Positions 12,101 through 58,873 of a stretch of DNA of 64,000 bases are shown here, one piece after another. Made by a program: the position numbers and the translations under genes. The notes under the pieces are model-generated. The model was not told the origin of the DNA. It worked only from the letters and a program-made list of their open reading frames with translations, and ran no database searches. Within the stretch, counting starts at the first letter, position 1. Each line of letters starts with the position of its first letter. The stretch is taken from positions 151,737,001 through 151,801,000 of the forward strand of contig NC_133026.1 in assembly GCF_048771995.1 (NCBI RefSeq), read 5' to 3'. The DNA is from Taeniopygia guttata (taxonomy: Eukaryota > Chordata > Aves > Passeriformes > Estrildidae).

Positions 12101-15100
12101 GGGATTTCCTGAGCTTTTTCATGATTTCCTGAGGATTTCCTGGGAATTTCCTGGGGATTTCCCAAGCTTTTCCTGGGATTTCCTGGAGATTTCCTGAGCT
12201 TTTCCCGGGGATTTCCCGAGTTTTTTCCGAGTTTTCCCGGGATTTCCTGTTGATTTCCCAAGTTTTCCCAAGCTTTTCCTGGGATTTCCCAGAGATTTCC
12301 TGAGCTTTTCCGGGGGATTTCCCGAGCTTTTCCGGGAGATTTCCCGAGCTTTTCCCGAGCTTTTCCTGGGGATTTCCTGAAGATTTCCTGGGGATTTCCT
12401 GAGCTTTTCTCAAGCATTTTCTGGGGTTTCCCGATCTTTTCCCGAGCTTTTCTTGGGGATTTCCCGGGGATTTCCCGAGCTTTTCCCAGGGATTTCCCAG
12501 GGATTTCCCGAGTTTTTCCCGCCTTTTCCCGGGATTTCCGGTATCCCGGCCTTACCGTGCTGGTCGGGGCGGTGCCGCTGTGCCAGGCCGGCCAGGCTGC
12601 GGCAGAGCGGGACCAGCGCCGGGCGCAGCCGCGGCCGCAGCAGCAGCGGCAGCAGGAACGGCCACAGCACCTGCGCATGGGAAAAGAGGGATGGTACCAC
12701 CGGGAATCACCGGGAATCACGGGGGAATTGCGGGGGAATAGCGGGGGAATTAAGGGGGAATTACGGGGAAATTATGGGGAAAAAATTGGAAAAAAATATA
12801 GGGGAAAAAAGGGGAAAATGAAGGAAAATAATTGGGAAAAATGGGGAGAAAATGAGGAAATAAAGGGGAAATAATTGGGGAAAAATGGGGAAAAATGGGG
12901 AAAAATTAGGAAATAATTGGGAAATTGTGGGGAAATAACAGGGAAATTGTGGGGAAATAATGGGGGAAAAGGGGGAATAATGGGGAAAAAATAGGGGGAA
13001 ATGGAGAAATAAAGGGGAAAATAATGGGGAATTAATGGAGGAATAATGGGGAAATAATGGGGAAATAATGGGAAAATAATGGGAAAATAATGGGGAATCA
13101 TTAGGGGGAAAATGGGGAAAAATGGGGAAAAAATTGGGAAAAATAGGGGAAAAAAGGGAAAAATGAAGGAAAACAATTGGGAAAAATGGGGAGAAAATGG
13201 AGAAATAATGGGGAAATTATGGGGAAATTATGGGGAAAATGATTGGGAAAAATGGGGAGAAAATGGGGAAATAATGGGAGGAAAATGGGGAAAAAATGAG
13301 GAAATAATGGGGAAATTATGGCGGGGGGGGGGAAGGGAAAAACAGAGCAAAATAATTGGGAAAAAATGGGGGAAATAATTGGGGAAAACAATTGCGAAAG
13401 TGGGGAAAAGCTGTGACGGGAAATGGGGAAATAATCGGGGAAAATGGGAAAAATCCCGAGGAAAATCCCTCAGGATTGGGAATTTGGGGGTTCGGAATTT
13501 GGAGATTGGGAATTTTGGGATAAAATCTCTCGGGATTGGGAATTTTGGGAACAAAAATTCTGAGGATTGGGAATTTTGGGGATTGGGAATTTCGGAATAA
13601 AAATCCCTCAGGATTGGGAATTTTGGGATGAAATTTCTCAAGACTGGGGATTTTGGGATTGGGAATTTTGGGGATTGGGAATTTTGGAATGAAATCCCTC
13701 GGGTTTGGGAATTTTGGGATGAAATCCCTCAGGATTGGGAATTTTGGGATTTAAGTCCTTTGGGATTGGGAATTTTGGGATGAAATCCCTCGGGTTTGGG
13801 AATTTTGGGATTTTCCCTGTTGGGAATTTCCGGAATTTTTGTTTTTCGGGAATCTCCCGTGGCCGAGGCGGGGCACGGTGCTGCTGAGCAGGAGCAGGAA
13901 ACCCTCCGGACTGGGAATTTTGGGATGAAATCCCTCAGGAATGGGAATTTTGGGATAAAATCCCTTGGGTTTGGGAATTTTGGGATAAAATCCCTTGGGA
14001 TTGGGAATTTTGGGATAAAATCCCTCAGGATTGGGAATTTTGGGATTGAAGTCCCACAGGATTGGGAATTTTGGGAACAAAATATATCGAGATTGGGAAT
14101 TTATGGGATTGGGAATTTTGGGGATTGGGAATTTTTGGGATTGGGAATTTTTGGGATTTTTGCAGTTGGGAATTCCCGGAATTTTGATTTTTTGGGAATT
14201 TTTTGGGAATCTCACGTGTCCGAGGCGGGGCACGGTGCTGCTGAGCAGGAGCAGGAAACCCTCAGGGCTGGGAATTTTGGGATAAAATCCGTTGGGACTG
14301 GGAATTTTGGGATAAAATCCCTTGGGATTGGGAATTTTGGGATGAAATCCCTCGGGATTGGGAATTTTGGGATAAAATCCGTTGGGATTGGGAATTTTGG
14401 GATAAAAATCCCTCAGGATTGGGAATTTTGGGATTGAAGTCCCACAGGATTGGGAATTTTGGGAACAAAATATATCGAGATTGGGAATTTATAGGATTGG
14501 GAGTTTTGGGGATTGGGAATTTTGGGGACTGGGAATTTTTGGGGTTGGGAATTTTGGGATTTTCCCTGTTGGGAATTCCCGGAATTTTGATTTTTTGGGA
14601 ATTTTTCAGGAATCTCCCGTGGCCGAGGCGGGGCACGGTGCTGCTGAGCAGGAGCAGGAAACCCTCGGGACTGGGAATTTTGGGATAAAATCCCTCAGGA
14701 TTGGGAATTTTGGGATGAAATCCCTCAGGATTGGGAATTTTGGGATTTTTGCTGTTGGGAATTCCCGGAATTTTGGGAATTTTTCGGGAATCTCCCGTGG
14801 CCGAGGCGGGGCACGGTGCTGCTGAGCAGGAGCAGGAAACCCTCGGGACTGGGAATTTTGGGATGAAATCCCTCAGGATTGGGAATTTTGGGATGAAATC
14901 CCTCGGGTTTGGGAATTTGGGGATTTAAGTCCTTTGGGATTGGGAATTTTGGGATAAAAATCCCTCAGGATTGGGAATTTTGGGATAAAATCCGTTGGGA
15001 TTGGGAATTTTGGGATAAAATCCCTCAGGATTGGGAATTTTGGGATTGAAGTCCCACAGGATTGGGAATTTTGGGAACAAAATATATTGAGATTGGGAAT

Positions 15101-18100
15101 TTATGGGATTGGGAGTTTTGGGGATTGGGAATTTTTGGGATTGGAAATTTTGGGATTTTTCCTGTTGGGAATTCCCGGAATTTTTCTTTTTTGGGAATTT
15201 TTTGGGAATCTCACGTGTCCGAGGCGGGGCACGGTGCTGCTGAGCAGGAGCAGGAAACCCTCGGGGCTGGGAATTTTGGGATGAAATCCCTCAGGATTGG
15301 GAATTTTGGGATGAAATCCCTCGGGTTTGGGAATTTTGGGATTTAAATCCTTTGGGATTGGGAATTTTAGGATAAAAATCCCTCAGGTTTGGGAATTTGG
15401 GGATTTAAGTCCTTTGGGATTGGGAATTTTGGGATTGAAGTCCCACAGGATTGGGAATTTTGGGAACAAAATTTATTGGGATTGGGAATTTTGGGATTGG
15501 GAATTTTTGGGATTGGGAATTTTGGGATTTTCGCTGTTGTGAATTCCCGGAATTTTTGTTTTTTGGGAATTTTTTGGGAATCTCCCGTGGCCGAGGCGGG
15601 GCACGGTGCTGCTGAGCAGGAGCAGGAAACCCTCAGGAATGGGAATTTTGGGATTTAAGTCCTTTGGGATTGGGAATTTTGGGATTTTTGCAGGTGGGAA
15701 TTCCCGGAATTTCTCTTTTTTGGGAATTTTTCGGGAATCTCCCGTGGCCGAGGCGGGGCACGGTGCTGCTGAGCAGGAGCAGGAAACCCTCGGGGCTGGG
15801 AATTTTGGGATAAAATCACTCAGGATTGGGAATTTTGGGATGAAATCCCTCAGGAATGGGAATTTTGAGATTTTTGCAGTTAGGAATTCCCGGAATTTTT
15901 CTTTTTTTGGAATTTTTTGGGAATCTCACGTGTCCGAGGCGGGGCACGGTGCTGCTGAGCAGGAGCAGGAAACCCTCGGGACTGGGAATTTGGGAATTGG
16001 GAATTTTGGGATGAAATCCCTCAGGATTGGGAATTTTGGGATTTTTGCAGTTGGGAATTCCCGGAATTTTGATTTTTTGGGAATTTTTCGGGAATCTCAC
16101 GTGGCCGAGGCGGGGCACGGTGCTGCTGAGCAGGAGCAGGAAACCCTCGGGACTGGGAATTTTGGGGATAAAATCCCTCAGGAATGAGAATTTTGGGATA
16201 AAATCCCTCGGGTTTGGGAATTTTGGGATTTTCCCAGTTGGGAATTCCCGGAATTTTGATTTTTTGGGAATTTTTTGGGAATCTCACGTGGCCGAGGCGG
16301 GGCACGGTGCTGCTGAGCAGGAGCAGGGTGCTGACGCTGACGCTCCGGACGTCGGCGCTCGTCGGATCCTCGGGATTTTCCTCTGGAATTCCGGCGGGCT
16401 GGGGGAAAACAGGGAGGAATTCCCAAAAAAAGTTGGGAAAAGGATGGGAAAAAGGATGGGAAAAGTGTGGGAAAAGTTGGGGAAAACATCTGGAAAAATT
16501 GGGAAGAAATGGGAAAAATTTGGTAAAGGGATGGGAAAATGGGGAAAAGGTTGGGAAAAGTTGGGAAAAGGATGGGAAAATTGGGGAAATGAGGAAAAAT
16601 TGGGAGAAGGGTGGGAAAAGGGTGGGAAAAGCTGGAAAAGTTGGGGAAAAATGGGGAAAATGGGGAAAAGGAGGGGAAAAATTGGGAAAATGGAGAAAAT
16701 TGTGGGAGAGGTTGGAAAAAGGGTGGGAAAAGTTAGGAAAATATTGGGAAAAATTGGGGAAAAATGGGGAAAAGGTTGGGAAAAGTTGGGAAAAGTCGGG
16801 AAAAGTTGGGAAAAGTTGGGGAAACATTGGGAAAAATGGGGAAAAATGGGGAAGAGGTTGGAAAAAGTTGGGAAAATTTAGGAAAATTTGGGAAAAGGGT
16901 GGGAAAAGTTGGGAAAAAATGGGGAAAAGGTTGGGAAAACTTGGGAAAAGGGTGGGAAAAGTTGGGAACAGTTGCGAAATCATTGGGGAAAATGGGGAAA
17001 AATGGGGAAAATTGAGAAAATAATGGGGAAATTGGGAAAATACTGGGGAAAGTTGGGAAAATATTGGGGAAATGTGAGGAAAAGGTTGGGAAAAGTTAGG
17101 AAAAGAATGGGAAAAGTTGGGAAAACATGGGGAAAATGGGGAAAAGGTTGGGAAAACTTGGGGAAAGGGTGGGAAAAGTTGGGAAAAGTCGGGAAAAGTT
17201 TGGGAATTTGGGGCAAAGGTTTGGAAAACTTGGGAAAAGGATGGGAAAAGTTGGGAAAAGGATGGGAAAAGGATGGGAGAAGTTGGGAAAACATTGGGAG
17301 AAACTGGGAAGAAATGGGGAAAATGGAGAAAATAATGGGAACATTGGGAAAATTATGGGAAAAGTTGGGAAAAATATTGGGAAAAATGATGGGAAAATGG
17401 GAAAAGGTTGGGAAAAGTTTAGGAAAAGAGTGGGAAAAGGGTGGGAAAAGTTGGAAAAATGATGGGAAACATTGGAAAAAATGGGGAAAATGGAGAAAAA
17501 TAATGGGAAAATTGGGAAAATGATGGGAAAAGTTGGGAAAATATTGGGAAAAATGGGGAAAATGGGAAAAGGCTGGGAAAAGTTTAGGAAAAGAATGGGA
17601 AAAGTTGGGAAAAGTTGGAGAAAATAATGGGAAAAATGGGAAAATTATGGGAAAAGTTGGGGAAAGTTTAGGAAAATTTGGGAAAAGGGTGGGAGAAGTT
17701 GGAAAAATCATGGGAAAATGTTGGGAAAAGTTGGGAAAAGGGTGGGAGAAGGATGGGAAAAGTTGGGGAAAACATTGGGAAAAATTGGGAAGAAATTGGG
17801 AAAATGGAGAAAATAATGGGGAAATTGGGAAAATACTGGGAAAAGTTGGGAAAATATTGGGGAAATGTGAGGAAAATGGGGAAAAGGTTGGGAAAACTTG
17901 GGAAAAGTTGGGAAAAGTTTAGGAAAATTTGGGAAAAGGTTAGGAAAAGTTGGGAAAACATGGGGAAAAAATGGGGAAAATGGGGAAAAGGTTGGGAAAA
18001 GTTAGGAGAAGAACGGGGAAAAGGTTGGGAAAAGAATGGGAAAAGGGTGGGAGAACTTGGGAAAAGCTGGGAAAATAATGGGAAAAAAATGGGGAAAATG

Positions 18101-21100
18101 GAGAAAATGTCGGAAAAAGTTGGGGAAGGATGGGAGAAGTTGGATAAAGAGTGGAAAAGTTGGAGAAAGGATGGGAAAAAATGGGGAAAATGGGGAAAAG
18201 GTTGGGAAAACTTGGGAAAAGTTGGGAAAAGGCTGGGAAATTTGGAAAAGATTATGAGAAATTGGGAAAAAATGGGGAAAACTTGAGAGGCGGACAGGGA
18301 AAAATGGGAAAAGGCTGTGGAAAAGTTGGAAAAGGGTGGAAAAAGTTGGAAAAAGTTGGGAAAAGTTGGGGAAAAGGCTGGGAAAAGGGTGAGAAAAGTT
18401 GGAATAATGATGGGAAAAGTTGGGAAAACATGGGGAAAAATGGGGAAAATAGGGAAAAGGTTGAGAAAAGTTAGGAAAAGAATGGGAAAAGGGTGGGAAA
18501 AGAATGGGAAAAGGGTGGGAGAAGTTGGGAAAAGCTGGGAAAATATTGGGAAAAAGGGGGAAAATGGGGAAAAGGTTGGGAAAACTTTAGGAAAATTTGG
18601 GAAAAGGGTGGGAGAAGTTGGAAAAATCATGGGAAAAGGGTGGGTAAAGTTGGGAAAAGGGTGGGAGAAGGATGGTAAAAGTTGGGAAAACATTGGGAAA
18701 ACATTGGGAGGAACTGGGAAGAAATGGGGAAAATGGAGAAAATAATGGGAAAATTGGGAAAATATTGGGAAAAAGTGGGGAAAATGGGGAAAAGGTTGGG
18801 AAAAGGTTGGGAAAAGTTGGGAAAAGTTGGAAAAAGTTGGGAAAAGTATGGGAAAATGATGGGAAAAGTTGGGAAAAGTCGGGAAAAGTTGGGAAAAGGT
18901 TGGGAAAAGTTGGGAAAAGGGTGGGAGAAGGATGGGAAAAGTTGGGAAAAACATTGGAAAAACATAGGGAAAAATTGGGAAGAAATTGGGAAAATGGAGA
19001 AAATAATGGGGAAATTGGGAAAATACTGGGGAAAGTTGGGAAAATATTGGGGAAATGTGAGGAAAATGGGGAAAAGGTTGGGAAAAGTTAGGAAAAGAAT
19101 GGGAAAAGTTGGGAAAAAATGGGGAAAATGGGGAAAAGGTTGGGAAAACTTGGGAAAAGGATGGGAAAAGTTGGGAAAAGTCGGGAAAAGCCGGGGAATT
19201 TGGGAATTCTCACCGGCTCAGCGGGCAGGGCGCACTGCTCCACCAGGAATTCCAGCAGCGCCTCCGCCCCCGGCTGCTCCAGGAAACCGTGGTGGGCCAG
19301 GGCAGAGATCAGCTGCACCAGGGCGCACTTCACCTGGGGAAAAACGGGAAAAACGGGAAAAATCGGGAATTCTGGGGGAGAAACGGTGGAAAAATGGGGA
19401 AAAACGGGGAAAAAATGGGAAAAAACAGGGAAAAAATGGGGGAAATGTGGGGGAAAATGGGAAATTGGGAGTCAGGAGCAGAGATCAGCTGCACCAGGGC
19501 GCACTTCACCTGGGGAAAAAACGGGAAAAACGGGAAAAATCGGGAATTCTGGGGGAGAAACGGTGAAAAAATGGGGAATAAATGAAGGAAAATGGTGAAA
19601 AAATGGTGAAAATGGGGGGGGGGAAATGGGGAAAAACCAGGGAAAAAATAGAGAAAAGAGAGGGAGAAACAGGAAAAAAATGGAATTCTGAGGAAAATGG
19701 GGGAAAACGGGGGGGAAATGGGGGAAATGTGGGAAAAAATGGGAGAAATGGGGGGAAAATGGTGAAAAAATGGGGAAAAATGTAGGGAAACAGTTAAAAA
19801 AAATGGGGAAATTATGGGGGAAAATGGGACAAAATGTGGGGGGAAATGGGACAAAAAGGGGATAAAAATGGGCAAAAAAGAGGAAGAAACAGGGAAAAAT
19901 CGGAATTCTGGGGGAAATGGTGAAAAAATTGGGAAAATTGAGGGGAAAATGGGGGAAATGAAGAAAAAATGGGGGAAATGGGGAAATTTTGGGGAAATGG
20001 GAAATTGGGAGTCAGGAGCAGGGATCAGCTGCACCAGGGCACACTTTTCTTTGGGGAAAAAAATGGGGAAAATGGGTAAAATTGGGAATTCTGGGGGAGA
20101 AATGGTGAAAAAATGGGGAAAAACAGTGAAAAAATGGGGAGAAATGGTGAAAAAATGGTGAAAAAATGGTGAAAATGGGGGGGGAAATGGGGAAAAAACA
20201 GGGGAAAAAATAGAGAAAAGAGAGGGAGAAACAGGAAAAAAATGGAATTCTGAGGAAAATGGGGAAAAATGGGGGAAAACGGGGGAAAATGTGGGAAAAA
20301 ATGGGAGAAATGGGGGGAAAATGGTGAAAAAATGGGGAAAAAATGTAGGGAAACAGTGAAAAAAAATGGGGAAAATATGGGGGAAAATGGGACAAAATGT
20401 GGGGGGAAATGGGAGGAAAAGGGGATAAAAATGGGCAAAAAAGAGGAAGAAACAAGGAAAAATCGGAATTCTGGGGGAAATGGTGAAAAAATTGGGAAAA
20501 TTGAGGGAAAAATGGGGGGAAATGAAGAATAAATGGGGGAAATGGGGAAATTTTGGGGAAATGGGAAATTGGGAATGAGGAGCAGGGATCAGCTGCACCA
20601 GGGCACACTTTTCTTTGGGGAAAAACGGGAAAAACGGGAAAATCGGGAATTCTGGGGGAGAAACGGTGAAAAAATGGGGAAAAACGGGGAAAAAATGGGG
20701 AAAAACGGGGAAAAAATGGGGAAAAACAGGGAAAAAATGGGGAATAATGGGGAAAAAATGGGGGGAAATGGTGAAAAAATTGGGGAAATGGTGTAAAAAT
20801 GGGGGAAAAAGAGAGGAAGAAACAGGAAAAAATTGGAATTCCATGAAAAAATGGAAAAATGGGAAGAAATGGGAAATAAATGGGGGAAATGGGGAATAAA
20901 TGAAGGAAAATGGTGAAAAAATGGGGGAAATGGGGGAAAATGGGAAATTGGGAGTCAGGAGCAGAGATCAGCTGCACCAGGGCGCACTTCACCTGGGGAA
21001 AAACGGGAAAAACGGGAAAAATCGGGAATTCTGGGGGAGAAACGGTGGAAAAATGGGGAATAAATGAAGGAAAATGGTGAAAAAATGGTGAAAATGGGGG

Positions 21101-24100
21101 GGGAAATGGGGAAAAAACAGGGAAAAAATAGAGAAAAGAGAGGCAGAAACAGGAAAAAAATGGAATTCTGAGGAAAATGGGGAAAAATGGGGGGAAACGG
21201 GGGGAAAATGGGGGAAAAAATGGGAGAAATGGGGGGGAAATGGTGAAAAAATGGGGAAAAATGTAGGGAAACAGTGAAAAAAAATGGGGAAAATATGGGG
21301 GAAAATGGGGGAAATGTGGGGGGGAATGGGAGGAAAAGGGGATAAAAATGGGCAAAAAAGAGGAAGAAACAGGAAAAAATTGGAATTCTGGGGGAAATGG
21401 TGAAAAAATTGGGAAAATTGAGGGAAAATGGGGGAAATTAAGAAAATATGGGGGAAATGGGGAAATTTTGGGGAAATGGGAAATTGGGAGTCAGGAGCAG
21501 AGATCAGCTGCACCAGGGCGCACTTCACCTGGGGAAAAAAAATGGGAAAAACGGGAAAAATCGGGAATTCTGGGGGAGAAATGGTGGGAAAATGGGGAGA
21601 AACGGGGAAAAAATGGGGAGAAATGGTGAAAAAATGGGGGGAAACGGGGAAAAAATGGGGAGAAATGGTGAAAAAATTGGGGAAATGGTGTAAAAATGGG
21701 GGAAAAAGAGAGGAAGAAACAGGAAAAAATTGGAATTCCATGAAAAAATGGAAAAATGGGAAGAAATGGGAAATAAATGGGGGGAAATGGGGAATAAATG
21801 AAGGAAAATGGTGAAAAAATGGGGAAAATTGTGAAAAAATGGGTGAAATTGGGGAAAAAAGGGTAAAAATGGGGAAGAGAGGGAGAAAGGAAAAAAATTG
21901 GAATTCTAGGTAAAAATGGGGGAAAATGGGGGAAAAACGGGGAAAAAATTGAGGGAAAAAAGCAGGGGAAAACAGTGAAAAAATGGGGGAAATGTGGGGG
22001 GAAAATGGGGGGAAAAATGGTAAAACTGGTAAAAAGAGAGAGAGAAAGGAAGAAATTGGAATTCTGGGTAAAAATGGGGGAAAATGGGGAAAAATTGAGG
22101 GAAAATGAGGGAAAAACAGTGAAAAAATGGGGAAATATGGGGGGAAAATGGGGGGGAAAATGGTAAAAATGGGAAAAAGAGAGGGAGAAAGGAAAAAAAA
22201 TTGGAATTCTGGGTAAAAATGGGGGGAAAATGGGGAAAAATTGAGGGAAAATGAGGGAAAAACAGTGAAAAATGGGGGAAATGTGGGGGAAAATGGGGAA
22301 AAAATGGGGGGAAAACAGAGTAAAAATGGGAAAAAGTGGGAGAAACAGGAAAAACTTGGAATTCCATGAAAAATTGAAAAAATGGGAAGAAATGGGAAAA
22401 AAATTGGCTGGAAAACGGGGAAAAAATGTCGGGAAATGGGGAAAAAATGGGGGAAAGAGTGAAAAAATGTCGGAAAAATGGGGGAAAATTGGGAAAATTG
22501 GGGAAAACCAGGAATTCCTGGAAAAAATGGGAATTTTAGGGGGAAAAAATGGGGGGGAAAATGGGAAAAAAGGGATTCCAGCCCCCGTGGCGCCCCCTAG
22601 AGGTGGGGAAGGGCAGCGGGGTTTGGGATTTTCGGGAATTCCAGAATTTTTTGGGAATTTTGGGAAATTTCTGGGAATTTTGGGAATTTTCCGGGAATTT
22701 TGGGAATACCTTGTTGCTCGGGTCCTGCAGAGGGACTTTAAGGGCAGAGAGGATGGAAACTTTCTGCATTTCCATCTGGGAAGCTGCAAAAAAACGGGAA
22801 TTTGGGATGGGGAAAATCCCCCGAGAAATCAACGAAGAATTCCGCAAAAAATCCCAAAATAATCCCAGAAAATCCCCATGAAATTCCCAATAAAATTCCC
22901 ATAAAATCTCCATGAAATCCCAAAATAATCCCAGAAAATCCCCATAAAATCCCCAACAAAATTCCCATGAAATCCCAAAATAATCCCAGAAAATCCCCAT
23001 GAAATTCCCAATAAAATCCCCATGAAATGACCAATAAATCCCCAAACAATTCTTTAATAAATCCCAAAATAATCGTATAAAATCTCCCAATAAATCCCAT
23101 TAACAAATGCCAATAAATCCCCAATAAACCCCATTTAAAAATCCCATAAAATCCCCCAATAAATCCCATAAAATCCCCATTAAAAACCCCATTAAACCCC
23201 ATTAAAAACCCCATTAAAACCCCATTAAAAACCCCATTAAAAACTCCATTAAAAACCCCATTAAAAACTCCATTAAAAACCCCATTAAAAACCCTATAAA
23301 TCCCAAAAAAATCCCCAATAAACCCCCAATAAACCCCAATAAATCCCCAATAAACCCCAATTAAACCCAAATATATCCCTAATAAACCAAATAAATCCCC
23401 AATAAATCCCATAAAAAACCCCAATAAATCCCCAATAAACTCCAAAAAACCCCAATGTCCTATAAATCCTCAATAAATCTCCAATAAATCCCCAATAAAC
23501 TGCCAATAAATCCCCTAAAAAACCGAAAAAAAACCCCATAAAATTCACTAAGAAATCCTCAAAATACTCCATAAAAAACCCAAAAAACCCCCATTAAACC
23601 CCATAAAATCCCCCCAAAAACCCCATTGACCCCCATTGATCCCCATTGATCCCCATTGATCCCCATTGATCCCCATTGATCCCCATCAATCCCCATTGAT
23701 CCCCCTTGATCCCCACTGACCCCCATTGACCCTGATCAATCCCCATTGACCACGATCAATCCCCATTGATCCCCATTGATCCCCATTGACCCCGATCAAT
23801 CCCCATTGACCCTCATTGACCCCGATTGACCCTGATTGATCCCCATTGATCCCCAATTGATCGCTGTGGCTCACGGGCGCTGTTGAGGAGGTGCCGCAGC
23901 AGCCGCAGCGCCCCATTGATCCCCATCGATCCCCATTGATCCCCATTGATCCCCATTGATCCCCATTGATCCCTATTGATCCCCATTGATCCCCATTGAC
24001 CCCCATCGACTCTGATTGATCCCCATTGACCCCGATTGATCCCCGATTGATCCCCGTGGCTCACGGGCGCTGTTGAGGAGGTGTCTCAGCAGCCGCAGCG

Positions 24101-27100
24101 CCCCATTGATCCCCATTGATCCCCATTGACCCCCATTGATCCCCATTGATCCCCATTGATCCCCATTGATCCCTATTGACCCCCATTGACTCTGATCAAT
24201 CCCTATTGACCCCGATTGATCCCAATCAATCCCGATTGATCCCCATTGATCCCCTCAGCTCACGGGCGCTGTTGAGGAGGTGCCGCAGCAGCCGCAGCGT
24301 CCCCTCGATCCCCATTGATCCCCATTGACCCTGATCAATCCCCATTGATCCCCATTGACCGCCATTGATCCCCAATGATCCTGATCAATCCCCATTGACC
24401 CCGATCAATCCCCAATAACCCCGATTGATCCCCATTGATCCCCTCAGCTCACGGGCGCTGTTGAGGAGGTGTCTCAGCAGCCGCAGCGCCCCATTGATCC
24501 CCATTGATCCCCATTGATCCCCATTGATCCCCATTGATCCCCATTGACTCTGATCAATCCCCATTGACCCCGATCGATCCCAATGGACCCCGATTGATCC
24601 CGATTGATCCCCATTGATCCCTTCAGCTCACGGGCGCTGTTGAGGAGGTGCCGCAGCAGCCGCAGCGCCCCCTCGATCCCCATTGATCCCCATTGATCCC
24701 CATTGATCCCGATTGACCCTGATCAATCCCCAATAACCCTGATTGATCCCCATTGATCCCCAATCGATCGCTGTGGCTCACGGGCGCTGTTGAGGAGGTG
24801 CCGCAGCAGCCGCAGCGCCCCATCGACCCCCATCGATCCCCATTGACCCCCATTGATCCCCATCGATCCCCATTGATCCCCATTGATCCCAATCAATCCC
24901 GATCAATCCCGATCAATCCCAATTAACCCTGATTGATCCCCTCAGCTCACGGGCGCTGTTGAGGAGGTGCCGCAGCAGCCGCAGCGCCCCCTCGATCCCC
25001 ATTGATCCCCATTAACCCCGATTGACCCCGATTGATCCCCATTGACCCCGATTGATCCCAATCAATCCCAATTAACCCTGATTGATCCCGGTGGCTCACG
25101 GGCGCTGTTGAGGAGGTGCCGCAGCAGCCGCAGCGCCCCCTCGATCCCCATTGATCCCCATCGATCCCCATTGACCCCAATCAATCCCCATTGACTCTGA
25201 TCAATCCCCATTGATCCCGATTGACCCTGATTGACCCCGATCGACCCCGATTGATCCCCGATCGATCACCGCTGCTCACGGGCGCTGTTGAGGAGGTGTC
25301 TCAGCAGCCGCAGCGCCCCGTGCCGGTGCCGCTCGGAGCCGCTCTCCAGCCGCGGCAGCAGCCAGGCCAGGAGCCGCGCCGGGAACGGCGCCGCTGCCAC
25401 GGGAACGGGGCGAAAATCGGGGATTTTGGGAAAAAACAGAATTTAATGGGGTTTAATGGGGTTTAATGGGGTGTTTAATGGGGTTTAATGGGGTTTAATG
25501 GGGTTTTTAATGGGGTTTAATGGGGTTTTTAATGGGGTTTAATGGGGCTTAATGGGGGTTTTATTTGGTTTAATGGGGTTTTTAATGGGGTTTTTAATGG
25601 GGTTTAATAATGGGGTTTAATGGGGCCTAATGGGGATTTTAGTGTGGTTTTAATGGGGTTTTTAATGGGGTTTTTAATGGGGTTTAATGGGATTTAATGG
25701 GTTTTTTTTTGGGGTTTAATGGGGTTTTGAATGGGGTTTAATGGGGTTTAATGGGGTTTAATGGGGTTAAATGAGGTTTTTAATGGGGTTTAATGGGGTT
25801 TAATGGGGTTTAATGGGGTTTAATGGGGTTCAATGGGGCTTTTAATGGGGTGCAATGGGGGTTTTATTTGGTTTAATGGGGTTCAATGGGGTTTAATGGG
25901 GTGCAACGGGGGTTTTATTGGGTTTAATGGGGTTTAATGGGGTGTTTAATGGGGTTTTTAATGGAGTTTAATGGGGTGTTTAATGGGGTTTTGAATGGGG
26001 TTTAATGGGGTTTTTTTGGGGTTATTAATGGGGTTTAATGGGGTTTTTAATGGGGTTTAATGGAGTTCAATGGTGTGTAATGGGGTTTAATGGGGTTTTT
26101 AATGGGGTTTATTGGGGTTTTTAATGGGGTTTAATGGGGTTCAATGGGGTTTTTAATGGGGTTTAATGGGGTTCAATGGGGTTTTTAATGGGGTTTAACG
26201 GGGTTCAATGGGGTTTTTAATGGGGTTTAACGGGGTTTTTAATGGGGTTTAATGGGGTTTTTAATGGGGTTTAATGGGGTTCAATGGGGATTTTATTGGG
26301 TTTAATGGGGTTTTTAATGGGGTTATTAATGGGGTTTAATGGGGTTTTTAAACGGGTTTAATGGGGTGTTTAATGGGGTTTTTAATGGGGTTTAATGGGG
26401 TTTAATGGGGTTTTTTATGGGGTTTAATGGGGTTTTTAATGGGGTTTAATGAGGTTTAATGGGGTTTAATGGGGTTTTTAATGGGGTTTAATGAGGTTTA
26501 ATGGGGTTTAATGGGGTTTTTAATGGGGTTTAATGGGGTTTAATGGTGTTTAATGGGGTTTAATGGGGTTTAATGGGGTTTTTAATGGGGTTTAATGGGG
26601 TTTAATGGGGTTTTTAATGGGGTTCAATGGTGTTTAATGCGGATTTTAATGGGGTTTAATGGGGATTTTAATGGGGTTTAATGGGGTTTTTAATGGGGTT
26701 TAATGGGGTTTTTAATGGGGTGTAATGGGCAAAATTCCAGAATTTTTGTTTAAAATCAGGAAATTTGGGGGGAATTTTTGGAATGTCGGGAACACCGGGT
26801 ACTTTGAGAACGTTGGGAACTTCGGGGACGTTGGGAATTTTGGGAAAGCTGGGAACGTTGGGAATTCTGTAGGGAATTTGTGGAATTTTGGAGGAAATTT
26901 GTGGAATTTTGGGCAAAATCACAGAATTTTGAGAGAGAATTTCAGAATTTCGGGGGGGGGAAATTTTAAACGAAAATCAGGGAATTTGCGGGCGGGAATT
27001 TCGGGAATTTTGGGAATTTTGGGAATCTCACCCAGGACGGAGAAGCAGCGCAGCAGCTCCGCCTGGTTCTTGCTGCTCGTGGGGACGTTGGGATCGGCCG

Positions 27101-45943: not shown

Positions 45944-46020
45944 CGCGACGCGCCCGGCGCCGCTTCCGGGTGCGGCGGCCACGCCCACTCCAGGCCACGC
46001 CCACCCCAATGGAAGTGTAT
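45944..46020 (-). other. MROH1: MROH1 non-coding exon 1 (5' end approximate)
   Basis: A clear donor at 45943 (minus strand CGTCGCG/gtgagcgct) ends a GC-rich stretch with no MROH1 start codon in phase, consistent with a 5' untranslated first exon. The right boundary, the transcription start, cannot be seen and is set from the promoter motifs. Splicing to the ATG exon at 43115 would leave an intron of about 2.8 kb. Confidence 0.6.
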
Positions 46021-46110: not shown

Positions 46111-46119
46111 GGGAGGGGA

Positions 46120-46800: not shown

Positions 46801-46826
46801 GTCACAGCAGCTTTGGGGTGAAATCC

Positions 46827-46832
46827 TTTAAT
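46827..46832 (-). terminator. HGH1: Candidate HGH1 polyadenylation signal (ATTAAA)
   Basis: The short unique segment 46795-46880 contains, on the minus strand, AATTAAAGGATTTC followed by GU-rich sequence (GCTGCTGTGACC). It is the only plausible poly(A) signal noticed between the HGH1 stop codon and the MROH1 promoter. If used, the HGH1 3' untranslated region is about 3.65 kb and mostly minisatellite. Confidence 0.4.
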
Positions 46833-46879
46833 TGGGCGACTCTGGGACACCCCGGGGGCTCCTTGGGGACATCCCGGTG

Positions 46880-49800: not shown

Positions 49801-50430
49801 CATTATCACCACAATGACTTTCACGGCCATCCAATTGTCACCACGGTGGCTTTTTGGGGACATCTCACTGTCACCATGGTGGCTTTTTGGGGACACCCCA
49901 TTGTCACCGCAATGGTTCTTTATGGACACCCCATTGTCACCGCGGTGGCTTTTTGGGGACACCATCCCATTGCCACCACGATGACCTTGAGAACATCTCA
50001 TTGTCACCACGGTGGCCCTTGGGGACACCCAATAGTCCCCAAGGTGGTTCTTTATGGACACCCCATTGTCACCGCGGTGGCTTTTGGAGACATCGTCCCA
50101 TTGTCACCACGATGACCTTCACAGTCATCCAATTGTCACCAAAATGGTTCTTTATGGACACCCCATTGTCACCGCGGTGGCTTTTTGGGGACACTGTCCC
50201 ATTGTCACCACGATGACTTTCATGGCCATCCAATTGTCACCGCAGTGGCTTTTTGGGGACATCTCACTGCCACCATGGTGGCTTTTTGGGGACACCCCAT
50301 TGTTCCCAAGATGGTTCTTTATGGACACCACGTTGTCACCGCGATGGCCCTTGGAGACACCGCGTCATTGCCACACCAAGGCCACCCCGTTGTCCCTCTC
50401 GGTGACGCTCTGGTGACGTTCCGGTGATGC
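46880..50430. repeat. 3.5-kb minisatellite, about 33-37-bp units, probably HGH1 3' UTR
   Basis: About 100 units of the type ggacaccccattgtcaccgc followed by ggtggctttttggg, with variants such as ggttctttatggacacccc and acttggtccttgagaacatc, forming higher-order blocks of about 200-300 bp. Open frames up to 365 codons exist in all phases because the units lack stops; they read as repetitive histidine- and tryptophan-rich peptide and are not considered genes. Confidence 0.92.
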
Positions 50431-50478
50431 TCCGGTGACGTTCCGGTGTCCCCCGGTGTCCCCCGGTGTCCCCCGGTG

Positions 50479-50622
50479 TCACGCGGCCGTCTCCATCTGC
50501 TCCTTCCTCCTCTGCTCCTCCTCCTCGGCGTCCATCTGGGCGAGGCGCCGCTGCAGCTCCGGTGGGATCGTCACCTCCAGGAGGTTCTGCATGGCCGCCT
50601 CCGGCTCGTCCCCGATCAGCAC
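50479..50622 (-). CDS. HGH1: HGH1 exon 6 (last coding exon)
   Basis: Residues 312-358 and the TGA stop at 50481-50479. Acceptor gtcccgcAG. Peptide starts VLIGDEPEAAMQNLLEV and ends in a charged helix DAEEEEQRRKEQMETAA. The family ends with a similar Glu/Gln-rich helix. Confidence 0.96.
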   Translation of the reverse strand: MLIGDEPEAAMQNLLEVTIPPELQRRLAQMDAEEEEQRRKEQMETAA

Positions 50623-53600
50623 CTGCGGGACACCGACAACCGTCCGGAACTGCGCCGGGAACGTGCCGGAACTGCGCTGGGAATGTGCCGGAACCGCGCT
50701 GGGAATGTGCCGGAACCACGTCGGGAATGTTCCTGAACTGCGTCGGGAATGTGCCGGGACCGCGCTGGGAATGTTCCGAAACTATTCCGGGAACATTCTG
50801 GAACTGCACCAGGAATGTTCCAGAACCGCACTAGGAACGCCACAACCGCACCGGGAACACCAGAACCGTGCCACAAACGTTCCGGAATCACACCGGGAAC
50901 GCCGGAACCGCACCGGGAATGTTCTGGAACCACGCCAGGAACGTTCTGGAATCACACTGGGAATGTTCTGGAACCGTGCTGGGAATGTTCCAGAACTGCA
51001 CCGGGAATGTGCCAGAACCACGCCGGGAACGTGCCGGAACTGTGCCAGCCATGCTGGAACCACACCGGGAATGTTCCGGAACCGTGCCGGGAACACCGGA
51101 ACCACACTGGGAATGTTCTGGAACCGTGCTGGGAACGCCAGAACCACACCGGGAATGTTCCAGAACTGCGCTGAGAATGTTCCTGAACCGCGCCAGGAAC
51201 GTTCCGGAACCGTGCCGGGAACGCCAGAACCACACCAGGAATGTTCTGGAACTGTGCTGGGAATGGCGGAACCACGCCAGGAATGTTCCGGAACCACACT
51301 GGGAACACCAGAACCACACTGGGAACACCGGAACCGCGCCACAAACTTCCTGGAACCACGCCAGGAACGTTCTGGAACTGCACCAGGAACGCCAGAACCA
51401 CACCGGGAATGTTCTGGAACTGTGCTGGGAATGTTCCGGAACTGCACCAGGAATGTGCCAGAACTGCGCTGGGAATGTTCTGGAACTGCGCTGGGAACAC
51501 CGGAACCGCGCCAGGAATGTTCTGGAACCGCACCGGGAATGTTCCAGAACCGCACCGGGAACACCGGAACCGTGCCATAAACGTGCTGGAACCGCGCCGG
51601 GAACATTTTGGAACTGCGCCGGGAACGTTCCGGAATCGCACCAGGAACGCTGGAACCACACTGGGAATGTTCCAGAACCGCGCTGGAAATGTTCCGGAAC
51701 TGCACCGGGAATGTGCCAGAACCGCGCCAGGAACGTGCTGGAACCGCGCCGGGAATGTTCCGGAACAGCGCCGGGAACGTTCTGGAACTGCACCAGGAAC
51801 GCTGGAACCACACTGGGAATGTTCTGGAACCACACTGGGAATGTTCTGGAACCACACTGGGAACGCCAGAACCGGACCGGGGACACCGGAACCGTGCCAC
51901 AAACGTGCCGAAACCATGCCATGAACTTTCCAGAATCGCACCAGGAACGCTGGAACCACACCGGGAATGTTCTGGAACTGCACTGGGAATGTGCTGGAAC
52001 CGTGCCGGGAATGTTCCAGAACCGCGCTGGGAACGTTCCAGAACCGTGCCAGGAACGTTTCAGAACCACACTGGTCACACTGGAACCGCGCCAGGAACAT
52101 TCCGGAACCACCCCGACAGCCCCGGCACAGCCCCGGCAGCGCCGGAACCGCGTCTCACCTGGATCAGCTTCTGGCAGGCGCCGAGCACCTCGGGGTGCCG
52201 CTCCCAGCCGTGCAGCTCCCGCAGGACCAGGTAGGAACCGCGGCGCCGCAGCTGCTGCCGCCCCGCCTTGGTGGCCGCCAGCTGCTCCAAGAGAAAATTC
52301 GGGAATTCTTTGGGATCCCCGCGGTTGTTGGAAGCCAAAATGCCGCAAAGAACCCAAAAAAATCCGGGCTTGGAGGCGAAATTTGGGGTCAAAAGGTCGG
52401 AATTGTTGGGGGAACACCGAGAAGTTTGAAATGTCAGCGAGGAAACCCAAAAATCCTCAGGGATCCCCCAAAATTCCTGAAGGAACCCCGAAATTTCTCA
52501 TCTAATCCCCAAAATTCCTCAAGGAAACCCAAAAATCCTCAGGGAATGCCCAAAATTCCTGAAGGAACCCCAAAATTTCTCCAAGAAGCCAAAAATTCTT
52601 AATGGGATCCCAAAATTCCTCAAGAAAACCCAGAATTCCTCAAGGAAACCCAAAAATCCTCAGGGATCCCCCAAATTCCTCATCAAACCCCAGAAATTCC
52701 TCAAGGAACTCCCAAAAACCCCAAAATTGCTCAAGGAACCCCCGAAATAATCCTCAGGAAGCCCCAAAATTCCTCACAGAACCCCCAAAATTCCTGAAGA
52801 ACTCCAAAATTCCTCATGGAACCCAAAGAATTCCTCAAGGAACTCCCAAAATTCCTCAAGAAACCCCAAAAATCCTCAAGAAAGCCCAAAAATCCTCATG
52901 GGACCTCCAAAATTCCTCACCAAACCCCAGAAATTCCTCAAGGAACTCCCAAAACCCCCAAAATTGCTCAAAAAACCCCCAAAATTCCTGAAGGAACCCC
53001 AAAATTGCTCACCAAACCCCCAAAATTCCTCAAGGATCCCCAAAATTCCTCATCAAACCCCCCAAATTACTCAAGGAACTCCCAAAATTCCTCAGGAACC
53101 CCCAAAATTTCTCATTGATCCCTCAAAATTGCTCTGAGAACTCCAAAATTTCTCATGGGACCCCAAAATTCCTCATGGAACCCCAAAAATCCTCATGGAA
53201 CCCCGAAAATCCTCATCAAACCCCCAAAATTTCTCATGGGACCCCAAAATTCCTCATGGAACCCCAAAATTCCTCATCAAACCCCAGAAATTCCTCAAGG
53301 AACTCCCAAAAACCCCAAAATTGCTCAAGGAACCCCCAAAATAATCCTCAGGAACCCCCAAAATTCCTCATAGAACCCCCGAAATTCCTCAAAGAACTCC
53401 CAAAATTCCTCATGTAACCCAAAGAATTCCTCAAGAACTCCCAAAAATCCTCAAGAAAGCCCAAAAATCCTCATGGAACCCCCAAAATCCTCGTCAAACC
53501 CCCAATATTCCTCTAAGAACCCCAAAAATCCTCATCAAACCCCCCAAATTACTCAAGGAACTCCCAAAATTCCTGAAGGAACTCTCAAAACCCCCAAAAT

Positions 53601-56600
53601 TCCTCATCAAACCCCCGAAATTCCTGCAGGAACCCCAAAACGCCCCACCAGCATCAGCGTCTCCAGCAGCATCTTGCGGATCTCGGGCTCCTCTTCGCGC
53701 CGGTGCTCCGGGGGGAGGTACTGCAGGTCCACGGGAAGTTCTGGAACGGGACAAACCCCTCAGGAAATTTGGGAATATTCAGGAAATTCCCAAAAAAAAC
53801 CCCGGGAAAAGCCACTCACGCTCCATCTCCTCCTCGGGGAGCTCCTCGGGGCCGGCCAGCGGCAGCAGCAGCAGCGGCAGCGCGTCCAGCTCGGGGCTCA
53901 GCAGCCGCTCGTGGTTCTCTGGGAATTCCGGGAATTCTCTGGGAATTCTCCGGGAATCTCATCCCGACATTTGGGAAGAGCCCCCAGGCGGAGCAGGAAT
54001 GGGACCGAGGTGGATTCCCCCCAAAATTTGGGGCTTTTCCCCCCATTTCTGCTTTTCTCCCGCCTTATCCTCCCGGAATTTTGGGAATCTTTGGGTTCTC
54101 CCATCCCACAGCCGCAGGGATGGGAATTCCAGCCGGGAATTTCATAAATTCTCAAGGGAATATTCCCAAAAATTCCCAACACGAGGCCATTCCTTCTTCT
54201 ACCATCCAGGATCCCACGGAATTCCAGGATTTTTAAGAGGATTCCATGGAATTCCAGGATTTTAGTTGGGATTTCAATGGAATTCCAGGATTTTAGTTGG
54301 GATTCCATGGAATTCCAGGATTTTAGATGGGATTTCAATGGAATTCCAGAATTTTAGTCAGGATCCCACGTAATTCCAGGATTTTTAAGAGGATTCCACG
54401 GAATTCCAGGATTTAAGTTGGGATTCCGACAAATTACGGGATTTCAGTCGGGATTCCATGGAATTCCAGGTAGATGGGATTTCAATGGAATTCCAGAATT
54501 TTAGTCAGGATTCCATGGAATTCCAGGATTTTTAGTAGGATTCTCTGCAATTCCAGGATTTCAGCTGGGATTTCAATGAAATTCCAGGATTTCAGTTGGG
54601 ATTCCAAAGAATTCCAGGATTTTTAATAGAATTTTTGGGAATTTCAAGATTTTAGATGGGATTCCAAGGAATTCCAGGGTTTTTAATAGGATTCTCTGTA
54701 ATTCCAGGATTTTTAGTAGGATTCCAAGAAATTCCAGCATTTTAGATGGGATTTCAGCCTGAATTCCATGGAATTACAAAATTTTAGCTGGGATTTTAAT
54801 GAAATTCCAGGATTTCAGTTGGGATTCCAAGAAATTCCTGGATTTTTAACAGGATTCCAAAAATTCCTGGATTTTAGATGGGATTTCAATGAAATTCCCT
54901 TATTTTAGTCAGGATTCCAAAAAATTCCTGGATTTTAGCCTGGATTTCAATGGAATTCCATTATTTTAGTCAGGATTCCACAGATTTCCAGGATTTTAGT
55001 TGGGATTCTCTGGAATTCCAGGATTTTTAACAGGATTCCATGAAATCCCAGGATTTTAGTCGGGATTCCATGGAATTCCAGGATTTTTAACAGGATTCCA
55101 CAAAATTCCAAGATTTTTAACCACAAACCCAAAAAATTCTCAAAAAAATCCCTCAAAAATCCCAAAATATTCCCAAAAAACCCCAAAAATCCCCAAACAA
55201 ACCAACAAATACCACAACCCCAAAAATTCTCTAAATATTATCAAAAAAATCCCCCCAAAAGATCACAAAATACTCACAAAAAATAATAAAATAATCACAA
55301 AAAAAGCACAAAATATTCACAAAAAATTCACCAAAAATCTCGGGAAAAATCCCAAACCCAAACAAAAAAAAATTCCCCAAAAATTCCTAAAAAAAATCCT
55401 AAAAATTTGAGGCAAAGGCCCGGAATTTTGGATTTTTACCGTGCTGGAAGCAGCAGTTCCTGAGCGCTCCCACGGCTCCTCTGCGCAGCGACGCCGAGTT
55501 CGGGTTCCTAACCAGGGCCAGGAGCCGCCGCAGCGCCCACCTGGAACACCCAAAAACACCCAAAATTACCCCAAAATTCTTAACAATCCACCAAAAAAAC
55601 AGCCCCCAAAAATCACCAAAAAATCATAAAATTACCAATATTATGTTACATTATTTTATATTGTGTTACATTATATCGTATTATGTTACATATTATATTA
55701 TATTATATTATATTATATTATATTATATTATATTATATTATGTTATATTATATTATATTATATTATATTATATTATATTATATTATATTATATTATATTA
55801 TATTATATTATATTATATTATATTATAGTATACTATATTATAGTATACTATATTACATTATATTGTATTATATTACATTATATTATATTTTGTACTATAC
55901 TATATCATATTGTATTATATTACATTATATTATATTATTTTATATATTATGTTACATTACATTATATTAATTATATTTATTATGTGACACTATATCATAT
56001 TACATTATATTATATATTATATTATATATTATGTTATATTATATTGTGTTACATTATATATTAAATTATATAATATGTTATATTATATTGTATTATATTA
56101 TATATTAAATTATATCATATTATATTATATTACATTATATAATATTTATTATATATTATATTATATTATATTACATTACGTTACGTTACGTTACGTTATA
56201 TTATATTATATTATATTACATTATATTATATTATATTATATTATAATTATATTATATTATATTATATTATATTATATTATATTATATTATATTATATTAT
56301 ATTATAATATATTATATTATATTACATTAATTACATTATATTATATTATATTATATTATATTAGATTAGATGATAATTCTATTCTATTCTATTCTATTCT
56401 ATTCTATTCTATTCTATTCTATTCTATTCTATTCTATTCTATTCTATTCTATTCTATTCTATTCTATTCTATTCTATTCTATTCTATTCTATTCTATTCT
56501 ATTCTATTCCAAATAAATCCCCCCAAAATCCCATTTATCTCACCCCGATGGCTCCAGCAGCGCTGCCCGTCCCTCGGGGTCCATCCTGAGGCTGCAGAGC

Positions 56601-58297
56601 AGCGCCCCCAAACCCCATAAAACACCCCCAAAACCCCCCAAAACCCCATAAATCACCCCAAAATCCCCATAAAACCCCCCAAAACCCCATAAAACACCCC
56701 AAAACCCCCAAAAATCCCCCCAAAATCTCACCCCTATGGCTCCAGCAGCGCTGCCCGTCCCTCCGGGGCCCGGCTGAGGTTGCAGAGCAGCGCCCCCAAA
56801 CCCCATAAATCACCCCAAAATCCCCATAAAACACCCCATAAAACACCCCAAAACCCCCATAAAACTCCCCAAAATCCCAATAAAACACCCCAAAAATCCC
56901 AATAAAACACCCCAAAACCCCCATAAATCCCCCCAAAATCTCATCCCAAGGGCTCCAGCAGCGCTCTCCGCCCCTCCGGGGCCCGGCTGATGTTGCAGAG
57001 CAGCGCCCCTCAAACCCCCAAACCCCATAAAACACCCCAAAAATCCCCAAAAACCCCATAAATCCCATTTATCTCACCCCGAGGGCTCCAGCAGCGCGGC
57101 CCGTCCCTCCGGGGCCCGGCTGAGGTTGCAGAGAAGCGCCCCCAAACCCCATAAAACACCCCAAAAACCCCATAAATCACCCCAAAAATCATCATAAAAC
57201 ACCCCAAAACCCCAAAATCCCCATAAATCCCCCCAAAATCTCACCCCGATGGCTCCAGCAGCGCTCTCCGCCCCTCCGGGGCCCGGCTGAGGCTGCAGAG
57301 CAGCGCCCCCAAACCCCATAAAACCCCCCAAAAACCCCATAAAACACCCCCAAAACCCCATAAAATCTCCATAAAATACCCCAAAATCCCAATAAAACAC
57401 CCCAAAATCCCAATAAAACACCCCAAAACCCCCATAAATCACCCCAAAAACCCCATAAATCCCCCCAAAATCTCACCCCGAGGGCTCCAGCAGCGCGGCC
57501 CGTCCCTCCGGGGCCCGGCTGAGGTTGCAGAGCAGCGCCCCCAAACCCCATAAAACACCCCAAAAATCCCCATAAACCCCATAAATCACCCCAAAACCCC
57601 CATAAATCCCCCCAAAATCTCACCCCGATGGCTCCAGCAGCGCGGCCCGTCCCTCTCGCACCCGGCTGATGTTGCAGAGCAGCGCCCCCAGACCCCATAA
57701 AACACCCCAAAAATCCCCCCAAAACCCCATAAAACCCCCCAAAATCCCATAAATCCCCCCCAAATCCCATTTATCTCACCCCGATGGCTCCAGCAGCGCG
57801 GCCCGTCCCTCTCGCACCCGGCTGATGTTGCAGAGCAGCGCCCCGAGCTCCTCCGGCGGCCGCTCCGCGCTCAGCGCCCGCAGCAGCGGCCCCGCGCCGG
57901 GGCCCAACGCCCGCAGCACCCGCGGCGCCGCCGCCTCGTCCCGGCTGAGGTTGGCCAGCACCCCGCAGGCCGCCCCGGAGCTGGGCAGCAGCTCGGCGAG
58001 CGAAGGAACGGCGGGGAGCAGCGGCTCCAGCGCGGCGGGCTCCGAGGACGCGTTCACCAGCGCGGCCAAGGCGGGCTGCGATCCACGCGAGGCCGAGGCG
58101 GCAAGGCCGCACAAGGCCGCTAAGGCCGCGGGGTGTCCCGCCAGCAGCGCCCGGCCCGAGGCGCTGCCCGACAGCGCCAGGGCGGCCTCGGCTGCTCCGG
58201 GAGCGGCGGGGGAGGACGGGGAGAGCAGCGCCGTCAGCTCCGACAGCGCCGCGGATGCCGCGGCATCATCGCTGTCGGCCTCCTCCATCGCCGCCAT
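50479..58297 (-). CDS. HGH1: HGH1 homologue (eEF2 folding chaperone, ARM repeats), complete, six exons
   Basis: Exons 57780-58297, 55440-55540, 53820-53918, 53649-53740, 52159-52281 and 50479-50622 join in phase to give 358 codons plus stop (the human protein is 390). The N-terminal 172 residues are an Ala/Leu-rich ARM-repeat domain with GRALLAGHPAAL and CGVLANLSRDE. Conserved C-terminal blocks are RRGAVGALRNCCF, LPLLLLPLAGPEELPEEEME, LPVDLQYLP, IRKMLLETLML, YLVLRELHGWE, KLIQVLIGDEPE and NLLEV. Yeast Hgh1 works with the TRiC chaperonin to fold elongation factor 2, in the cytosol. The gene lies head-to-tail upstream of MROH1, as in mammals. All introns except the 79-bp third are arrays. Confidence 0.96.
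50623..52158 (-). repeat. HGH1 intron 5: GGAACCGCGCCGGGAATGTTCC minisatellite
   Basis: About 1.45 kb of 15- to 21-bp units (ccgggaatgttccggaaccg with many CpG to TpG or CpA variants). Because most units are multiples of three, both strands stay open for up to 545 codons. The pairs of related CG and TG/CA forms suggest methylation-driven decay of a CpG-rich repeat. Confidence 0.92.
52159..52281 (-). CDS. HGH1: HGH1 exon 5
   Basis: Residues 271-311, 41 codons, phase 0. Acceptor ttggagcAG, donor CAG/gtgaga. Peptide LAATKAGRQQLRRRGSYLVL followed by RELHGWE and ending ACQKLIQ. A competing AG lies 3 bases upstream; the chosen one restores homology to LTATAPGRQQ. Confidence 0.95.
52282..53648 (-). 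repeat. HGH1 intron 4: CCCAAAATTCCTCAAGGAACC array
   Basis: From about 52440 to 53640 the unit is aaaattcctcaaggaaccccc (about 20 bp) with longer-range duplication: for example, about 52680-52790 resembles 53275-53380. No exon copies were seen. Confidence 0.88.
53649..53740 (-). CDS. HGH1: HGH1 exon 4
   Basis: Completes codon 240 and encodes residues 241-270. Acceptor cgttccAG, donor CTG/gtgggg. Peptide LPVDLQYLPPEHRREEEPEI followed by RKMLLETLML, strongly conserved in the HGH1 family. Confidence 0.96.
53820..53918 (-). CDS. HGH1: HGH1 exon 3
   Basis: Completes codon 207, encodes residues 208-239 and starts codon 240. Acceptor aattcccAG, donor AGC/gtgagt. Peptide NHERLLSPELDALPLLLLPL followed by AGPEELPEEEME. 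It is separated from exon 4 by a 79-bp intron (53741-53819), the only short HGH1 intron. Confidence 0.95.
53919..55439 (-). repeat. HGH1 intron 2: GGAATTCCAGGATTTTAGTTGGGATT array, then A-rich sequence
   Basis: From 54210 to about 55120 units of about 30 bp (ggaattccaggattttagtt) match the repeat family at the left end of the window (470-740) in MROH1. From 55120 to 55430 the sequence is A-rich with aaaatcccc and cacaaaa motifs and no gene. Confidence 0.88.
55440..55540 (-). CDS. HGH1: HGH1 exon 2
   Basis: Completes codon 173 (glycine), encodes residues 174-206 and starts codon 207. Acceptor tgttccAG, donor ACG/gtaaaa. Peptide WALRRLLALVRNPNSASL followed by RRGAVGALRNCCFQH. The RNCCF block is diagnostic for HGH1. 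Confidence 0.96.
55630..56375. repeat. TATTA pentanucleotide microsatellite in HGH1 intron 1
   Basis: About 745 bp of tatta repeats with interruptions (tgtta, tacta, acgtt). Both strands are open in short frames of Tyr/Ile/Leu codons; these are artefacts. Confidence 0.95.
56376..56508. repeat. (ATTCT)n pentanucleotide tract in HGH1 intron 1
   Basis: About 26 uninterrupted attct units directly after the TATTA tract, ending in attcc. The same plus-strand motif expands in human ATXN10; here the HGH1 transcript carries the complement, AGAAU. Confidence 0.96.
56530..57779 (-). repeat. HGH1: HGH1 intron 1: array with seven copies of the exon 1 donor edge
   Basis: Units of 133-232 bp, each holding the last 64-66 nt of exon 1 (peptide ALLCNLSRAPEGRAALLEPSG-like) and its donor, spaced by ccccataaaacaccccaaaa repeats. 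Copies begin at 56544, 56732, 56945, 57078, 57245, 57477 and 57624. Six keep GTGAGA; the 56945 copy has ATGAGA. The copy nearest the genuine exon (57624) shares its ctctcgcacccggctgat variant exactly, so it is the youngest. Confidence 0.93.
57780..58297 (-). CDS. HGH1: HGH1 exon 1
   Basis: ATG at 58297-58295 in good context (GCGGCCATGG); 172 codons plus two bases, donor TCGGG/gtgaga. The peptide starts MAAMEEADSDDAAASAAL. A second ATG three codons on is an alternative start. CpG-rich and Ala/Leu-rich; contains GSASGRALLAGHPAALAALC, GVLANLSRDE and LGALLCNISR, characteristic of the HGH1 ARM domain. Confidence 0.95.
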
Positions 58298-58800: not shown

Positions 58801-58873
58801 CACAAAACCGGCCCCGGGGCCTCTCTGAAACTCTTAAATCCGGCCTAAATCCTGGAAATCATTGATTAGAATA

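Follow-up and report, generated by a model that had tools for sequence, protein, structure and literature searches.

The analysed window, a stretch of 64,000 nt, contains two adjacent genes, HGH1 and MROH1, both encoded on the minus strand. Exons were modelled from GT-AG boundaries, open reading frames and Pfam matches. The latter identify HGH1 through DUF383 (1.3e-35) and DUF384 (8.7e-18), and MROH1 through HEAT_Maestro_2 (8e-127) and HEAT_MROH2B_1st (2.4e-12). Gene content and anatomy together point to a bird dot chromosome as the likely location of the window.

58297..50479, minus strand: HGH1, six exons
43115 downward, continuing past the window, minus strand: MROH1 coding exons c1 to c19
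45997..45944 (approximate), minus strand: MROH1 exon 0, a probable untranslated exon placed by guesswork

The models of MROH1 c15 and c16 are weakly supported, and neither exon bears on the copy arrays described below. Exon c19, which belongs to no array, was modelled from position 3634; the reading frame places its acceptor ~14 bases upstream, and because of this offset the end of the MROH1 translation is out of frame.

The introns are rich in local simple repeats. Tandem Repeats Finder returns 331 rows at a score of at least 80 over the window, and the introns display short-period autocorrelation. The MROH1 intron c14-c15 harbors an exact tandem duplication (10369-11887) with an offset of 747 bp and an exact run of 772 bases, which is either very recent or a duplication of the assembly.

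Exon-edge copies in adjoining introns

A profile search (E<1e-7) revealed 52 truncated extra copies that derive from nine edges of eight exons. All 52 lie in direct orientation in the intron adjoining their source, 25 donor-edge copies downstream and 27 acceptor-edge copies upstream, and all can be placed across the exon-intron boundary. The eight exons, their edges and sides and a total of about 52 had been put forward in the preliminary description of this DNA, and the profile search recovered the same set. The side rule formulated there (donor copies downstream, acceptor copies upstream) holds without exception, and the tandem duplication across an exon-intron boundary proposed there as its origin is supported by copies that are direct, adjoining and boundary-spanning. 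The source exons and their copies are as follows.

57780..58297, minus strand: HGH1 exon 1, source of a donor-edge array; donor boundary at 57780/57779
56544..57688, minus strand: seven copies of the HGH1 exon 1 donor edge (BLAST and profile), ~65 nt of exon plus the donor, GT intact in 6/7; first intron bases at 57623, 57476, 57244, 57077, 56944 (GT lost), 56731 and 56543
41018..41181, minus strand: MROH1 coding exon 2 (c2), source
41900..41931, minus strand: one copy of the c2 acceptor edge with adjoining upstream intron (BLAST and profile), AG intact in 1/1
39289..39420, minus strand: MROH1 coding exon 3 (c3), source for copies of both edges
39488..40578, minus strand: thirteen copies of the c3 acceptor edge, ~26 nt of exon, AG intact in 13/13
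39113..39150, minus strand: one copy of the c3 donor edge, 38 nt, 100% identical, GT intact in 1/1
32402..32553, minus strand: MROH1 coding exon 6 (c6), source
33189..34659, minus strand: five copies of the c6 acceptor edge, AG intact in 4/5
29187..29327, minus strand: MROH1 coding exon 7 (c7), source
29467..29865, minus strand: three copies of the c7 acceptor edge, AG intact in 1/3
25280..25393, minus strand: MROH1 coding exon 10 (c10), source
23875..25139, minus strand: eight copies of the c10 donor edge, 40 nt of exon, GT intact in 8/8
19214..19333, minus strand: MROH1 coding exon 12 (c12), source
19478..21528, minus strand: five copies of the c12 acceptor edge, 32 nt of exon, AG intact in 3/5
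16288..16398, minus strand: MROH1 coding exon 13 (c13), source
13859..16140, minus strand: nine copies of the c13 donor edge, 40 nt of exon, GT intact in 4/9, with GG in the other five

Seven of the nine edges have between 3 and 13 copies, and two (the c2 acceptor and the c3 donor) have a single copy each. The thirteen c3 acceptor copies are spaced by 82-94 bp, with two of them leaving the exon match earlier. Spacing is wider at the c10 donor edge (149-199 bp), where an array of GATCAATGGG type lies between the copies. The limits given in the preliminary description, 13858 and 57779, correspond to the outermost c13 copy and to the HGH1 exon 1 donor, in each case to the first base on the intron side. 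Within HGH1 intron 1 (55640-56510), the G-rich array of exon copies gives way to long AT-rich repeats of AGAAT type and TAATA type.

The window was also screened with blastn-short (dust off, length of at least 20), the settings published for exon stuttering by Hron et al. 2026 (Genome Biol Evol, Feb 2026; PMC12954441). Twenty-six exons were compared with 27 non-exonic stretches: the sequence between the two genes, both ends of the window and the 24 introns that are complete. The screen yielded 56 matches, 49 of them in the adjacent stretch, and 45 of these reach at least 42.1 bits and are spread over 9 introns. These 45 confident matches consist of 25 donor-edge copies downstream and 20 acceptor-edge copies upstream, with no antisense match. 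The last exon base is reached by 36 of the 45, and the other nine end 3-37 nt short of it.

Several controls define the background of these searches. Of the seven distal BLAST matches, a single one, antisense and 21 nt long, attains 42.1 bits. Twenty sets of mononucleotide-shuffled introns produced five matches in total, all distal and none above the threshold (best 34.2 bits); this control preserves base composition only, and the seven distal matches in the real introns provide a fairer background. Probes of 30 nt taken from the middle of each exon (26 probes, at least 36 bits) found no intronic copy and a single match, located in another exon. The corresponding 52 edge probes at the same score gave 51 matches, of which 47 come from the nine edges and four are antisense matches for the c13 acceptor edge. 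The count of 52 leaves out weaker profile matches (E ~0.0002 to 1), part of which lay in other introns or in antisense orientation; most arose from the two-sequence c2 model.

Splice sites carried by the copies

The splice dinucleotide (GT or AG) is kept in 41 of the 52 copies, in line with the earlier view that the decoy sites are mostly intact. The sites were also scored with matrices derived from our own gene models (25 donors, 24 acceptors), omitting the source site. Of the 25 donor copies, 19 equal or exceed the median real donor, versus 5 of 1,159 other intronic GTs (47,103 bp, 24 introns). Among acceptor copies, 16 of 27 equal or exceed the median real acceptor, versus 192 of 1,478 other intronic AGs. 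The copies thus make up most of the strong donor-like sites in the intron sequence (19 of 24) and a minority of the acceptor-like ones.

Use of these sites would rarely preserve the protein. A single decoy of the 52 (39513, +93 nt), used on its own, would give an in-frame, stop-free extension of the exon with an intact site; four further decoys are stop-free and shift the frame, and all seven HGH1 decoys lead to a stop at codon 174. Protein-coding use of these sites is therefore unlikely, and near-silence is expected. This creates a puzzle for splicing: 19 strong donor-like decoys are set against 25 modelled real donors and must be ignored, since splicing at almost any of them would disrupt the protein.

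Copies kept as a device to regulate splicing, for instance by competing with the true sites, could account for the intact dinucleotides, for site scores that reach the real median far more often than those of other intronic GTs and AGs, and for an exonic part that, in five of the seven multi-copy arrays, has diverged less than the intron next to it (in the other two it has diverged more). We nonetheless consider such a function highly improbable: the frame is so seldom preserved, five of the nine c13 donors read GG, and tandem duplication by itself suffices to produce the side and orientation of the copies. The decoys look like by-products, given that just one in 52 offers an intact site together with an open, in-frame extension.

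Breakpoints, mosaics and intron periodicity

For the majority of arrays, the exonic part of most copies stops at one common point within the exon. Among confident BLAST matches, the inner breakpoint is common to 6/7 at HGH1 exon 1 (position 454), 7/8 at c10 (position 75), 5/5 at c12 (position 32) and 9/9 at c13 (position 72). It is likewise common to 7/8 at the c3 acceptor edge (position 26), where 8 of the 13 copies reach the score, and to 2/2 at c7 (position 41), where 2 of the 3 copies do. Past this point, profile alignment rows reveal foreign sequence that is also common to most copies. The c6 array is less regular, with BLAST matches of 29, 29, 48 and 61 nt and short copies that, judged by eye, contain an internal deletion.

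Because the inner breakpoint is common to the copies in most arrays, we favor a single founding event and later amplification of the array over repeated copying out of the exon. Repeated independent copying, by templated insertions that lack a single founder and subsequent amplification, would fit the variable divergence from the source (84.6-100% identity among the HGH1 exon 1 matches) and the variable lengths of the c6 matches. Separate events would scatter their breakpoints, and in six of the seven multi-copy arrays most copies have the same breakpoint and the same foreign sequence beyond it; we regard this explanation as less probable still than a regulatory function. A common breakpoint could also result from homogenisation of several founders instead of one, and a single founder is less clear for the c6 array. 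The founder reading is drawn from this one sequence, which accommodates slippage and meiotic unequal exchange alike.

Within the modelled exons, the 10-mer GGGGCGCTGC is confined to 57844 (HGH1 exon 1) and 25319 (MROH1 c10), both inner breakpoints of separate donor-edge arrays. We rejected it as proof of a sequence-specific break, as the probability of chance sharing among nine random exon positions is ~0.011, and keep it as a hint; GGGG microhomology with the G-rich introns is an alternative explanation for the sharing.

The units within an array are mosaics of each other. In the five of seven multi-copy arrays subjected to a four-gamete test, with the source included, all four combinations are present in 59 of 136 informative site pairs at HGH1 exon 1, 4 of 6 at c10, 12 of 105 at c3, 28 of 78 at c12 and 1 of 3 at c13, counts that are not independent since many sites are linked in blocks. 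Because the variant sites form linked blocks, recurrent mutation is unlikely to be the sole cause of the mosaics.

One such block is found in HGH1 exon 1 and in its nearest copy and is absent from the other six copies, while the flanks of the nearest copy are of array type. This suggests a short-tract exchange involving exon-type sequence, in either direction. Pfam scores separate the two versions by 0.3 bits (121 for the exon version and 121.3 for the copy version). Yeast HGH1 (6hb1) reads DISR at the variant site, closer to the exon version. The human HGH1 sequence at the same site presumably points in the opposite direction to yeast as to which version is older.

Exon stuttering, with one founding boundary duplication per array and subsequent amplification, very probably explains the copies. 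For each array, a single tandem duplication across the exon-intron boundary would have made the genuine exon edge the outermost unit of the repeat. The short intronic repeats would then amplify by replication slippage, template switching or unequal exchange, carrying the slice of exon edge with them, and continued swapping of short tracts between units would produce the mosaic. Because selection would preserve the coding copy and its position, the array could grow only on the intron side, and the side rule would follow. The decoy splice sites would be by-products of this process and no regulatory device. Least probable among the explanations weighed is an artefact of assembly or consensus, with copies arising from collapsed or misjoined repeats: introns of this sort are hard to sequence (PMC6792250) and the 772-base exact run in c14-c15 could be a duplicated piece of contig, but the copies differ from one another in sequence, spacing and mosaic pattern, and raw nanopore data are reported to confirm the general repeat structure for chicken PHF8 (PMC12954441).

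A second property common to most introns is a period close to one turn of the DNA helix. Twenty-three intron stretches measure at least 300 bp, namely 22 complete introns and one truncated by the window start. In 18 of the 23, the strongest autocorrelation at lags from 5 to 40 bp lies within 10-11, 20-22 or 30-33 bp. This set comprises 9 of 36 lags (binomial P 1.3e-7, against a crude null, tandem arrays favoring short lags). The mean autocorrelation peak lies at 10.6 bp (bootstrap 10.1-11.1), and 15 of the 23 stretches individually peak at 10.0-10.9 bp. About one turn of B-DNA corresponds to ~10.5 bp. The pooled A/T spectrum (952 windows of 147 bp) likewise peaks at 10.5 bp, with a value of 8.3 versus 1.1 in shuffles; taken singly, 18 of 23 stretches peak at 9.9-11.1 bp and the other five at 6.3-8.8 bp. 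Exons of at least 148 bp (42 windows), a weak control, peak at 11.0 with a value of 2.4. The most frequent 10-mers differ between introns, and several motifs are alike (GGAATTCC-like), so that the introns are not fully independent. The repetitive sequence upstream of HGH1 (58298-64000) lies outside the helical series, with best lags of 44 and 81 bp and an A/T peak at 6.8 bp.

A dinucleotide periodicity of 10.4 bases is described as a hallmark of nucleosome positioning (PMC3117857). We tentatively raise the possibility, which we hold to be rather doubtful, that stuttering is paced by the DNA helix. In most introns, whatever the motif, repeat units would measure one, two or three turns, with runs of A/T and G/C alternating every ~10.5 bp, and the exon edge would be an end unit that exchanges tracts with the array, making coding edges rewritable, as the block common to HGH1 exon 1 and its nearest copy would illustrate. 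If so, a slippage or selection step would act on DNA that is wrapped in nucleosomes or helically phased.

Quadruplex motifs are abundant in many introns, for example 77 on the gene strand of MROH1 c6-c7 versus 4.95 in shuffles. They do not fully track the repeats, because none were found in some introns, such as c14-c15 and HGH1 introns 2-5. The c6-c7 intron (29328-32401) contains a GGGGTTT-type array and is extremely asymmetric between strands, with a GC skew of -0.92 in the interval 30001-32000.

Relation to known systems

Whole-exon tandem duplication duplicates complete exons together with both splice sites and thereby adds splice sites inside a gene. The arrays described here have in common with it extra splice sites from tandem duplication, and they differ in that the copying is restricted to a single edge and often repeated many times. 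No duplicate of a whole exon with both splice sites was found in the window, the 45 confident matches being truncated edges throughout. A closer likeness is to the GC-rich 'hidden' avian genes (Beauclair et al. 2019, PMC6792250), whose introns also contain short tandem repeats with G-quadruplex motifs; a word search of that paper gave no passage on copied exon edges such as those of HGH1 and MROH1.

The closest counterpart already has a name. The preliminary description had known of no named system of this kind, a statement that does not hold, as Hron et al. describe it on chicken dot chromosomes under the terms 'sequence stuttering' and 'exon stuttering', splice sites included (PMC12954441). 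A literature search for the two terms led to that paper only, and a search combining MROH1, HGH1 and chicken gave no title bearing on birds. As in the chicken, the adjacent intron is filled with local repeats and carries direct tandem copies, imperfect in sequence, of a lateral exon part together with its donor or acceptor, while the coding exon stays intact (PMC12954441). Four hallmarks of exon stuttering are present: direct adjacent copies of at least 20 nt and at least 42.1 bits, a copied part that begins no more than 1 base from the exon border and runs on into the intron, imperfect clusters, and local repeats in the introns.

According to the main text of PMC12954441, exon stuttering in the chicken affects 115 genes and 236 introns with 1,345 confident hits; the exon part measures 20-187 bp (median 36) and the copies number 1-44 (median 4), ranges that include all nine edges of HGH1 and MROH1. 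Dot chromosomes hold 190 of the 236 introns, and intron length is reported to vary between birds. As to mechanism, its authors name replication stress, G-quadruplexes or meiotic gene conversion and state that only speculation is possible. A word search of that main text found neither HGH1 nor MROH1 by name, nor the words 'breakpoint', 'microhomology', 'period', 'helical' or 'nucleosome', and a literature search on the helical period gave no title on periods in avian introns.

The copies in HGH1 and MROH1 are exon stuttering, already named, in a new and unusually dense case: nine of 24 complete introns are affected, versus 190 of 5,572 annotated introns on chicken dot chromosomes (3.4%; PMC12954441), a contrast biased upward by the choice of a striking window. 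These two adjacent genes provide a compact example with three testable clues to the mechanism, namely inner breakpoints common to most copies of an array, mosaic units, and a repeat period that, irrespective of motif, is close to one turn of the helix in most introns.
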